This document shows positions 57,011-62,151 of a DNA stretch of 64,000 nt, one piece after another. The position numbers were made by a program, and so were the translations under genes. Under the pieces are notes generated by a model. That model saw only the letters and a program-made list of their open reading frames with translations, was not told where the DNA came from and made no database searches. Where the stretch lies: positions 7,412,001 to 7,476,000 of the forward strand of contig NZ_CP022203.1 in assembly GCF_002305895.1 (NCBI RefSeq). Reading direction: 5' to 3'. Within the stretch, counting starts at the first letter, position 1, and each line of letters opens with the position of its first letter. Source of the stretch: Corallococcus macrosporus DSM 14697. GTDB taxonomy: Bacteria > Myxococcota > Myxococcia > Myxococcales > Myxococcaceae.

Positions 57011-59278
57011 ATGGGTACGGCGAAAAGCAAGCAGCCATTCGAACTGCCAGACTTCTACGTTCCCTGGCCGGCGCGCTTGAACCCCCACCTCGAAGGCGCC
57101 CGGGTGCACTCCAAGGCATGGGCGCGCGAGCTGGGAATCATTGGCCGCCCGAAGGATGGCAGCGCTCCGGAAATCTGGAGCGAGGCGAAGTTCGATGCCA
57201 TGGACTACGCCCTGCTCTGTGCCTACACCCACCCGGAGACACCGGGCCCGGAGCTGGACCTCATCACGGACTGGTACGTCTGGGTCTTCTACTTCGACGA
57301 CCACTTCCTGGAGCTCTTCAAGCGCTCCCAGGACATGGTGGGCGCGAAGGCCTACCTGGACCGGCTGCCGTTGTTCATGCCGCTGGACCCGGCGGCCACG
57401 CCACCGCCGCCCACCAACCCCGTCGAGGCCGGGCTGTTGGACTTGTGGAACCGCACCGTCCCCAGCCGCTCCATGGCGTGGCGGCGCCGGTTCTTCGAGC
57501 ACACCAAGCACCTGCTGGACGAGTCGAGCTGGGAGCTGAACAACATCAGCGACAGCCGCGTCTCCAACCCCGTTGAATACATCGAGATGCGGCGCAAGGT
57601 GGGCGGGGCGCCCTGGTCCGCCAACCTGGTGGAGCACGCCGTCTTCGCCGAGGTCCCCGACCGCATCGCCGCCAGCCGCCCGATGCGCGTGCTGAAGGAC
57701 ACGTTCTCCGACGCGGTCCACCTGCGCAATGACCTGTTCTCCTACGAGCGGGAGATTCTGGAGGAAGGTGAGCTCTCCAACGGCGTCCTGGTGGTGGAGA
57801 AGTTCCTGGACATCTCCCCGCCGCGCGCCGCGCACCTCGTCAACGAGCTGCTCACCTCGCGCCTCCAGCAGTTCGAGAACACCGTCTTCACGGAGCTGCC
57901 GCCGCTCTTCGCCGAGTTCGGGCTGAACCCGGTGGAGCAGGCGCAGGTGCTCACCTACGTCCGCGGGCTTCAGGACTGGCAGTCCGGCGGCCACGAGTGG
58001 CACATGCGCTCCAGCCGCTACATGAACAAGGGCTCGGGCGGCGCGGGCGGCTTCTTCCTGGGCCCCAACGGCCTGGGGACCTCCGCGGCGCGGCTGCCGC
58101 GGTCGCCCACGGCCCTGGGGCTCACCCGCCTCAAGAACTTCTCCCACGTGCCCTACCAGCCCGTGGGCCCGGTGAAGCTGCCGAAGTTCTACATGCCGTA
58201 CTCCACGAAGCCGAGCCCCCACCTGGACGCGGCGCGGCGGGAGTCCAAGGCGTGGGCGCGGCGCATGGGCATGCTGGAGGTGCTGCCTGGCGTCCCCGGC
58301 GGCTACATCTGGGATGACCACAAGTTCGACGTGGCCGACGTGGCGCTCTGCGGCGCGTTGATTCACCCCCACGCCACCGCGGCGCAGCTCGAGCTGTCCG
58401 CCTGCTGGCTCGTCTGGGGCACCTACGCGGACGACTACTTCCCCGCCTTCTACGGGCACACCAGGGACATGGCCGGCGCCAAGGTGTTCAACGCCCGGCT
58501 GGCGCTGTTCGTGCCGGAGGACGCCAGCGCGGAGGTCCCGCCCCCCACCAACCCGGTGGAGAAGGGCCTGGCGGACCTGTGGGCCCGCACCACGGAGGGC
58601 GTGACGCCCGACTCGCGGCGCCTGTTCCGCAAGGCCATCCTGGACATGACGGAGAGCTGGCTGTGGGAGCTGGCCAACCAAATCCAGAACCGCATCCCGG
58701 ACCCCATCGACTACGTGGAGATGCGGCGGCAGACGTTCGGCTCGGACCTCACCATGAGCCTGTCCCGCCTGGCCCACGGCGACGCGCTGCCGCCTGAAAT
58801 CTTCCACACCCGGCCCATCCGCAGCCTGGAGGGCGCGGCGGCGGACTACGCCTGCCTCACCAACGACGTCTTCTCCTACCAGAAGGAGATTGAGTTCGAG
58901 GGCGAGCTCAACAACGGCGTGCTCGTCGTGCAGCGCTTCCTGGACCTGGACCCGGCGCGGGCCGTCTCCGTCGTCAATGACTTGATGACCGCCCGGATGC
59001 AGCAGTTCGAATACATCATCGCCAACGAGCTGGAGCCGCTCACGCGCAACTTCAACCTGGACGGCCAGGCGAAGGAGAAGCTGCGCCAGTACGTCCAGAA
59101 GCTGCAGCAATGGATGAGCGGCGTGCTCATCTGGCACCAGACGGTGGACCGCTACAAGGAGCCCGAGCTGCGCGCGTCCCGCAAGCTGGCGCCGCGCCTC
59201 TCCTCGGGCCCCACCGGCCTGGGCACCTCCGCCGCACGCATCGCCTCCCTCTTCAGCAACCTGCGCTCCGGCGCCTGA
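57011..59278 (+). CDS. geoA: Bifunctional germacradienol/geosmin synthase, probable encapsulin cargo
   Basis: A 755-residue two-domain terpene synthase. The N-terminal domain cyclises farnesyl diphosphate to germacradienol: metal motifs DDHFLE (96-101) and NDLFSYERE (240-248). The C-terminal domain turns it into geosmin: DDYFP (474-478, where Streptomyces enzymes have DDYYP) and NDVFSYQKE (618-626). Each domain starts with the paired P-x-FY-x-P strand (PDFYVPW at 13-19, PKFYMPY at 391-397). The motif [11 protein letters not shown] occurs in the linker (351-361) and again near the C-terminus (733-743). It is the first gene of an operon with two encapsulin shell genes, and the next ATG is 27 bases after its stop. 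Inference: the enzyme is packaged inside the shell. Confidence 0.95.
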
Positions 59279-59305
59279 CCTTCCCTCCCAATCGAAAGGC
59301 CCATC

Positions 59306-60715
59306 ATGTCGAACATCCTCAAGCCGGGCGGTGACTCCGAGCAGTCCCAGTTGAGCCTGGGTACGGCCGCGGCGCGCCAGCTCGCCACCACGACCAAGTC
59401 CGTCCCGCAGATGCAGGGCATCTCCTCCCGGTGGCTGCTCAAGCTGCTGCCCTGGGTGCAGGTGTCCGGCGGCGTGTACCGCGTCAACCGCCGGCTGAGC
59501 TACGCGGTGGGTGATGGCCGCGTCACGTTCACCACCACCGGCGCCAAGGTGCAGGTCATCCCGCAGGAGCTGTGCGAGCTGCCCCTGCTGCGCAGCTACG
59601 ACGACGTGGAGGTGCTGACGGCGCTGGCCAACCGCTTCGAGCAGAAGACGTACAAGGCCGGAGAGGTCATCACCGAGGTGGGCAAGGAGGCGGACTGCAT
59701 CGTCCTCATCGCCCACGGCAAGGTGAACATGATTGGCGCCGGCAAGTACGGTGACGCCACCGTGCTCGGGGTGCTGGCGGACGGCGACCACTACAGCTAC
59801 GAGGCGCTGCTGGAGTCGCAGGACTACTGGAAGTTCACCGCCAAGGCCGTCACGGCGTCCACCGTGCTCGTGCTCCAGCAGTCGGACTTCGAGGCCGTGG
59901 TGGCCCAGGCCCCGTCGCTGCAGAAGCACGTCGAGCGCTTCAAGGCCCGCGCGAAGAAGAAGCAGGACACCACGGGCCAGGCGGAAATCGAGCTGGCCGC
60001 CGGCCACTCCGGCGAGCCGGTGCTGCCGGGCACCTACGTGGACTACGAGACGTCGCCCCGCGAGTACGAGCTGAGCGTGGCCCAGACGGTGCTCCAGATT
60101 CACACCCGCGTGGCGGACCTCTTCAACGAGCCCATGAACCAGACGGAGCAGCAGCTCCGGCTGACCATTGAAGCGTTGAAGGAGCGCAAGGAGCACGAGG
60201 TCATCAACAACCGCGACTTCGGCCTGCTGCACAACGCCGACCTCAAGCAGCGCATCCACACCCGCCACGGCCCGCCCACGCCGGACGACATGGACGAGCT
60301 GCTGGCCACCGTGTGGAAGGAGCCGTCCTTCTTCCTGGCCCACCCGCGCGCCATCGCCGCCTTCGGCCAGGAGTGCAGCCGCCGGGGCATCTACCCCACC
60401 AGCGTGGACTTCAACGGCAACATGGTGCCCGCCTGGCGCGGCGTCCCCATCTTCCCGTCCAGCAAGATTCCCGTCAGCGAGTCGCGCACCACGTCCATCA
60501 TGCTGATGCGCGCGGGTGAGAAGAACCAGGGCGTCGTCGGCCTGCACCCGGGCACCATCCCCGACGAGGTCGAGCCCGGCCTCAACGTCCGGTTCATGGG
60601 CATCAACGAAAAGGCCATCATCAACTACCTGGTCACCACCTACTTCTCCGCCGCCGTCCTCGTGCCCGACGCGCTGGGCATCCTGGAGAGCGTCGAAATC
60701 GGCCGCGGCGACTAG
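59306..60715 (+). CDS. Family 2B encapsulin shell protein 1
   Basis: A 469-residue HK97-fold nanocompartment shell protein. The N-terminal arm carries [17 protein letters not shown] (15-31), [19 protein letters not shown] and the [12 protein letters not shown] strand typical of Family 2 encapsulins. A cyclic-nucleotide-binding-like domain is inserted at about 95-220, the mark of Family 2B. The rest ([79 protein letters not shown]) is the P- and A-domain core. The insert's phosphate-binding segment reads [13 protein letters not shown] and lacks the usual F-G-E and Arg. It follows the synthase gene closely and precedes a paralogue about equally long. Confidence 0.92.
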
Positions 60716-60736: not shown

Positions 60737-60750
60737 GTGAGAGGTCTCAC
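60737..60750 (+). promoter_or_regulatory. Hairpin holding the ribosome binding site of the second shell gene
   Basis: GTGAGAGGTCTCAC at 60737-60750 is an inverted repeat directly abutting the ATG at 60751. It can fold as a five-base stem with an AGGT loop that contains the ribosome site. Confidence 0.5.
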
Positions 60751-62151
60751 ATGGCGAACTTCATGAAGACGGGCGGCGACGACACGCCGCGGTTGAGCCT
60801 GGGCACGGCCGCCGCGCGCCAGCTCGCGACGACGACCAAGACGGTCCCGCAGATGCAGGGCCTCACCCCGCGGTGGCTCCTGCGCATGCTGCCGTGGGTG
60901 GAGGTGCCGGGTGGCGTGTACCGCGTCAACCGGCGCCTGAGCTACGCGGTGGAGGATGACCGCCTCGTGTTCAGCAACATCGGCGCGAAGGTGCAGATCA
61001 TCCCGCGGGAGCTGCTCAAGCTGCCGCTGCTGCGGGGCCTGAGCGGCGACGACGAGGTGATTTCCGCCCTGGCCAGCCGCTTCACCCAGGCGGAGTTCAA
61101 GGCGGGCGACGTCATCGTCGAGGAGGGCAGGCCCGCCGAGCACGTCTTCCTGCTGGCCCACGGCAAGGCGCGCAAGCTGCGCGCGGGGCCGTACGGCGCC
61201 CCCGTCACCCTGGACGTGCTGGCGGATGGCGACCACTTCGGCGACCAGGCCGTGGCGGAGTCGAACGACGCCTGGGGCTACACCGTCAAGGCCACCACGC
61301 CGTGCACGGTGCTGTCCCTGCCGCAGCAGGTGTTCGAAGAGCTGATTGCCCGGTCCGCCACGCTGCGCGCCCAGGTGGAGCGGTTCCGGGAGCGGCTGAA
61401 GAAGCCCCAGGACAAGATGGGGCAGGCCGCCATTCCGCTGGCGGCCGGCCACTCCGGAGAGCCGCCCATCCAGGGCGGCTTCGTGGACTACGAGCTCGCG
61501 CCCCGCGAGTACGAGCTGAGCGTGGCCCAGACGGTCCTCCGGGTCCACACGCGCGTCTCCGACGTCTTCAGCGACCCCATGGACCAGACGGAGCAGCAGC
61601 TCCGGCTGACCATTGAAGCGCTGAAGGAGCGGCAGGAGCACGAGCTCATCAACAACCGCGACTTCGGCCTGCTGCACAACGCCGACCTCAAGCAGCGCCT
61701 CCACACCCGCCACGGGCCGCCCACGCCCGATGACCTGGACGAGCTGCTCAGCCGGCGCCGCAAGTCGCGCTTCTTCCTGGCCCACCCGCGCACCATCGCG
61801 GCCTTCGGCCGGGAGTGCACCCGCCGGGGCGTCTATCCCACGCCCGTGGACGTCCAGGGCACGCCGTGCATGGCCTGGCGCGGCGTTCCGCTGCTGCCGT
61901 GTGACAAGATTCCCATCACCGAGCAGCGCACCAGCGCCATCCTCGTGCTGCGCACCGGCCAGGAGGACCAGGGCGTCATCGGCCTGCGCCACACCGGCCT
62001 GCCGGACGAAGTCGAGCCCGGCCTCTCCGTGCGCCGCATGGACGTCACCGACAAGGCCATCACGAACTACCTGGTCAGCACCTACTTCTCCGCGGCGCCC
62101 CTCATCCCCGACGCGCTGGGCGTGCTGGAGAACGTGGAGCTCGGCGCCTGA
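60751..62151 (+). CDS. Family 2B encapsulin shell protein 2
   Basis: A 466-residue paralogue of shell protein 1, with the same layout: arm motif [17 protein letters not shown] (14-30), [25 protein letters not shown], inserted cyclic-nucleotide-binding-like domain (about 95-220) and HK97 core ([22 protein letters not shown]). The insert differs most between the two: here [16 protein letters not shown], nearer a canonical cyclic-nucleotide pocket, though still without its Arg. The core regions are nearly identical. Two shell genes in one operon suggest a mixed shell of two proteins. The operon ends with a hairpin at 62153-62214. Confidence 0.92.

Follow-up and report, generated by a model that had tools for sequence, protein, structure and literature searches.

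Geosmin gives soil its smell. Clusters of geoA with two genes named 'cnb' were published in 2020 for Cyanobacteria and Deltaproteobacteria (PMC7251104), geosmin synthase (GS)-like cyclases were presented as tagged Family 2B encapsulin cargo by Andreas and Giessen in 2021 (PMC8346489), and encapsulins were reported in all myxobacterial geosmin clusters in 2025 (PMC12224551). GS-type cargo carries a tag with an 11-residue consensus twice, once between the cyclase domains and once at the C-terminal end (PMC8346489). In Streptomyces lydicus, the shell protein Enc1 alone does not give regular shells, and together with Enc2 it forms mixed shells (PMC12407261). In the literature searched, neither shell assembly nor cargo loading was documented for a pair of GS and Family 2B shell.

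The window, the whole 64,000-nucleotide stretch of Corallococcus macrosporus DSM 14697 that was analysed, contains a plus-strand trio in the order GS (GeoA), Enc1 and Enc2 at 57011-62151, separated by intergenic gaps of 27 and 35 bases (Table 1). The initial annotation had described three same-strand genes with these gaps, encoding a complete bifunctional GS and two paralogous HK97-type shells with inserted cyclic-nucleotide-binding (cNMP)-like domains; the ORF coordinates agree with it, as do an NF041168 score above cut-off, two PF19086 domains and four intact metal motifs for GS, and PF19307, PF00027 and NF041163 matches for the shells. Taken as a whole, the locus is best explained by GS being a tag-tethered cargo of an Enc1/Enc2 shell and making geosmin inside it, with a probability of about 0.85. 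The locus is single, with no second copy of GS or of the shells in the 8.97 Mb one-contig genome. Among named relatives, Myxococcus xanthus AM003 is the nearest, with a GS identity of 94%, and a plasmid search returned only remote relatives, with top identities of 54% (GS) and 64% (Enc1). The candidate GS promoter matches 9 of 12 consensus letters, and shuffled sequence gives a mean of 0.2 such matches per region. AraC-type and DJ-1/PfpI-like genes lying just 5' on the same strand (54965-56855) were considered as members of the system and rejected, since they adjoin GS in the near relative L049 only and are absent beside L056; their position beside GS is a recent local arrangement.

Table 1. 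Positions of the genes and sequence features of the geosmin synthase-encapsulin locus.
Feature	Position	Strand	Description	Evidence
Candidate promoter	56921-56949	+	in 155-base AT-rich gap 5' of GS	consensus match only
GS ORF	57011-59278	+	755 aa, bifunctional germacradienol/geosmin synthase, putative cargo	NF041168, two PF19086
N-domain Asp-rich metal motif DDHFLE	57296-57313	+		conserved in 19 aligned GS
N-domain NSE motif NDLFSYERE	57728-57754	+		GS alignment
Putative tag 1 (11 residues)	58061-58093	+	aa 351-361, linker between cyclase domains	10/11 consensus match
C-domain metal motif DDYFP	58430-58444	+		GS alignment
C-domain NSE motif NDVFSYQKE	58862-58888	+		GS alignment
Putative tag 2 (11 residues)	59207-59239	+	aa 733-743, C-terminal tail	11/11 consensus match
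Enc1 ORF	59306-60715	+	469 aa, Family 2B encapsulin shell	NF041163 769 bits, 9bje, Enc1 clade
Enc1 N-arm segment (15 residues)	59354-59398	+	cargo-tag-like	
Enc1 inserted domain	59645-59908	+	aa 114-201	PF00027 50 bits
Enc1 diagnostic motif 1 TVWK	60308-60319	+		letters identical to S. lydicus Enc1 (PMC12407261)
Enc2 ORF	60751-62151	+	466 aa, second Family 2B encapsulin shell	NF041163 742 bits, Enc2 clade
Enc2 N-arm segment (15 residues)	60796-60840	+	N-arm	
Enc2 inserted domain	61093-61353	+	aa 115-201	PF00027 68 bits
Enc2 diagnostic motif 1 RRRK	61753-61764	+		letters identical to S. lydicus Enc2 (PMC12407261)

A Pfam search identified two Terpene_syn_C_2 (PF19086) domains in GS, which scores 1233 bits against the NCBIfam model NF041168 (curated cut-off 1200), named 'family 2 encapsulin nanocompartment cargo protein terpene cyclase'. 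Both are class I cyclase domains carrying an Asp-rich and an NSE metal motif, and both Mg-binding motif pairs (15 and 14 residues) are intact. The N-domain is 65% identical to the S. coelicolor GS structure 5dz2 (TMt 0.98), and an AlphaFold2 model of GS, built from a 19-sequence alignment, has a pLDDT of about 80-97 across most of both cyclase domains. The N-domain identity and the full-length NF041168 match point to geosmin as the likely product from farnesyl diphosphate. In an in vitro assay attributed to Jiang in 2007, S. coelicolor GeoA alone reportedly behaved as a bifunctional enzyme, and thus the shell would not be strictly needed for GS catalysis. A GS expressed in E. coli made germacradienol and germacrenes, with geosmin absent, according to a review (PMC7251104), which is what a partner requirement would predict.

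The bulk of each shell protein is occupied by the SrpI-like HK97-type domain PF19307 (453 bits in Enc1 and 440 in Enc2), and both proteins exceed the cut-off of 400 bits of the encap_f2b model NF041163. Their nearest PDB relatives, 9bhu, 9bix and 9bje, align across almost the entire shell protein, with 9bje the best for Enc1. By diagnostic motif 1 and separate clades, the pair consists of one Enc1 and one Enc2; the site of this motif is reported to distinguish the two proteins in two-component systems (PMC12407261). For diagnostic motif 2, a 10-residue segment of Enc1 is akin to the Enc1 form, and the match of Enc2 to the Enc2 form GAELHGTDVR is poor. In a tree of 97 shells, Enc1 clusters with myxobacterial Enc1 and Enc2 with myxobacterial Enc2 (SH-aLRT 98-100), indicating that the pair was not recently duplicated. 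The Enc1 of Kribbella catacumbae (L109, 6434-7993) also clusters with myxobacterial Enc1 (SH-aLRT 98), and its sequence was possibly acquired by horizontal transfer. It is unlikely that Enc1 and Enc2 build two separate homomeric shells, a possibility raised in PMC8346489 and compatible with their divergence (64% identity), as S. lydicus Enc1 is irregular alone and co-assembles with Enc2 (PMC12407261), and diagnostic motif 1 in the present pair is identical to that in S. lydicus.

The initial annotation had raised the question of whether the gene adjacency is confined to this strain; the trio is in fact kept across myxobacteria and cyanobacteria. A sample of 179 Myxococcota genomes included 59 GS-positive ones with 63 GS loci, and both shells lie downstream, on the same strand and in the same order, at 59 of these loci, far above chance. 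One of the other four ends at a contig end, and three are shell-less second copies (G052, G053, G091). Across the 179 genomes, all strong Family 2B shells lie beside a GS, and GS-negative Myxococcota have single shell matches only, nearly all of Family 2A size. Cyanobacterial loci carry the identical trio of GS and two shells; in Actinomycetota, the shell often lies 5' of GS, or GS stands alone. In a gammaproteobacterial locus (L171, 2160-5483), GS is frameshifted and has a Family 2B shell downstream that shares 69% identity with Enc1; an additional 11-residue tag-like motif lies near 6128. In the record titled 'Comamonas sp. KCTC 72670' (L057), GS and the shells are Myxococcus-like (90, 96 and 89% identity), and the name of the record is probably wrong.

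The two tag-bearing stretches of GS (aa 339-376 and 726-755) have pLDDT values below 50 and are predicted to be disordered. An alignment of 19 diverse GS shows no substitution at three tag glycines (G354, G736 and G738) and near-invariance at G356, although the flanking linker is variable in length and letters. The tail tag scores at least 8/11 in 33 of 41 orphan GS versus 47 of 61 GS with an adjacent shell, and independent contrasts (four pairs, with no power) gave no correlation between tag quality and shell adjacency. Tag decay was considered as a marker of shell loss and rejected, the independent pairs (only four) being without signal. Seven Streptomycetaceae GS (L139-L145) have no C-terminal tag and keep a degenerate linker tag, e.g., LTGPGTSAAD. 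Three myxobacterial genomes have a second GS copy (L041, L042, which equals L059, and L043) that keeps both tags and has no adjoining shells. Besides GS and two Family 2B shells, four Pseudonocardiales MAGs (L087, L091, L092 and L100) encode a second, 2-MIB-synthase-like terpene cyclase, whose N-terminal extension bears one to three tags of the same 11-residue type; a further one (L093) also has GS and two Family 2B shells, with the second cyclase seen just as a short tagged fragment.

Genome-wide, a Family 2 shell match occurs in every one of 340 distinct GS-positive genomes from four draws (the total after dropping ten genomes common to several draws), including Actinomycetota with a lone GS. 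The genomes counted are related to one another, and the shells of Streptomycetaceae are associated with other cargos; Pseudomonas gingeri and P. agarici, which carry GS (PMC7251104), lie outside this count. Such a shell is present in 59/59 GS-positive Myxococcota, in 13/13 GS-positive Actinomycetota of an even draw (a Family 2B-size shell occurs in 1 of 263 GS-negative genomes), and in 149/149 GS-positive Streptomycetaceae, among which the sole GS-less genome is also the sole shell-less one. In Streptosporangiales, the shell occurs in 129/129 GS-positive genomes (one as a weak fragment) versus 26/51 GS-negative ones (Fisher p 9e-17, phylogeny ignored). All 41 genomes picked for GS likewise contain a shell, located elsewhere in each orphan-GS genome. 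These counts, which are not independent of phylogeny, suggest that GS without an adjacent shell may be loaded in trans.

The tag also resembles the N-arm of the shells. Of 138 Family 2B shells, 129 have their top match to a tag profile (GLGTSAAR) in their own N-arm (e.g., SLGTAAAR, SLSTAAAR), with a permutation p of 0.001, the lowest value that 1000 permutations allow. Given the shared ancestry of the shells, this effectively amounts to one resemblance. Eight Family 2A shells score far lower. When a 9-column tag profile is run on all ORFs, shell arms fall near the 99th percentile, with roughly 1 in 200 unrelated ORFs scoring as high. As a likeness between sequences, this may serve as a lead only. 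Docking of a luminal cargo at the N-arm is hard to reconcile with Family 2A N-termini, which are described as extending outside the shell (PMC8346489). A broader proposal, that GS is an obligate Family 2B client in all bacteria, trans-loaded if needed, with a tag that imitates the shell N-arm (SLGTAAAR versus GLGTSAAR) and docks at the arm site of a neighbouring subunit, is unlikely.

It is also improbable that the shells are made and GS stays free in the cytosol, with the 11-residue motif serving domain packing or a linker role and the operon reflecting co-regulation only. Retention of the motif in orphan GS and the bifunctional activity of S. coelicolor GeoA on its own would fit a free enzyme; the motif lies, however, in segments predicted to be disordered and outside the catalytic fold, it recurs in the shell-adjoining 2-MIB-synthase-like cyclase of the four Pseudonocardiales MAGs, and each orphan-GS genome examined encodes a Family 2 shell elsewhere.

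In both shells, the PF00027 insert follows the N-arm and precedes the main HK97 match. The phosphate-binding cassette of cyclic-nucleotide domains usually has a GE and Arg signature, and by-eye comparison of the 17-residue segments of Enc1 and Enc2 with it indicates that GE and Arg are both apparently absent. This agrees with the report that a tested Family 2B inserted domain does not bind cyclic nucleotide (PMC12407261). The substrate gating suggested by the initial annotation would depend on such binding, and the apparent lack of the signature and the reported non-binding speak against it; the inserted domain is probably not a cAMP gate. The old 'cnb' reading of Enc1 and Enc2 as Crp/Fnr-like regulators of geoA rather than an enclosure, which draws on the PF00027 match in both, the Crp/Fnr-type annotation in PMC7251104 and the label 'Crp/Fnr family transcriptional regulator' of PDB 9bje and 9bix, is highly improbable, since Pfam finds no helix-turn-helix in either protein, the HK97 domain forms most of each, and 9bhu, 9bix and 9bje align over nearly the full shell length.

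Encapsulation of tag-tethered GS within an Enc1/Enc2 shell is favored because, at the sequence level, GS is intact, its two tags lie in stretches predicted to be disordered, one Enc1 accompanies one Enc2 and synteny is strict; because GS is matched by the encapsulin-cargo model itself and the shells lie above curated cut-offs; and because Enc1 and Enc2 of S. lydicus build mixed shells (PMC12407261). The seven Streptomycetaceae GS without a C-terminal tag count against it, as do the bifunctionality of S. coelicolor GeoA alone and the four contrasts in which tag quality does not follow shell adjacency. Enc1 and Enc2 would together form a T=1 shell of mixed composition, with the tags anchoring GS to its interior. 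Farnesyl diphosphate would pass in via shell pores, the N-domain would convert it to germacradienol and the C-domain would yield geosmin, which would leave by diffusion. The shell may hold the hydrophobic intermediate near the second active site and/or exclude competing phosphatases and prenyl-diphosphate users. The initial annotation, which had proposed GS as the cargo and a two-protein shell, is partly supported: the conserved tags and strict synteny favor the former, the diagnostic motif and separate clades favor the latter, and novelty is not supported, as the operon type was published in 2020, 2021 and 2025.

The present instance is thus an ordinary one, and the additions of this analysis are the GS-shell pairing counts and the likeness between tag and N-arm, which were not found in the available portions of PMC8346489, PMC7251104 and PMC12224551. 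No further publications on a geosmin synthase encapsulin were found in the literature searched, which excluded subscription papers, and earlier work may exist. The pairing counts yield a testable claim on Streptomyces, where work on GS treats it as a free enzyme. With three genes at a single locus in a culturable group, a measurable volatile and a reaction in two steps whose intermediate is detectable, the trio offers a compact test system that could address the purpose of a terpene-cyclase encapsulin.

Collectively, the locus closely matches the described systems. Like those in PMC8346489, it combines a two-domain GS, which bears the 11-residue tag both between its domains and at its C-terminal end, with adjoining cNMP-domain shells; the paired shells there are about 60% identical (64% here), and nothing essential differs except one linker-tag letter, a change from T to N relative to that consensus. 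The cluster in PMC7251104 agrees in genes, order and sizes (758, 471 and 469 aa there; 755, 469 and 466 here), but its shell genes are named Crp/Fnr regulators, and the myxobacterial geosmin BGC with encapsulins in PMC12224551 is the same cluster, with no difference noticed. The two-component encapsulin of S. lydicus shares the Enc1/Enc2 pair with TVWK and RRRK as motif 1, whereas its putative cargo type is a xylulose kinase instead of a terpene cyclase (PMC12407261). The locus confirms the published operon type in one more myxobacterium.
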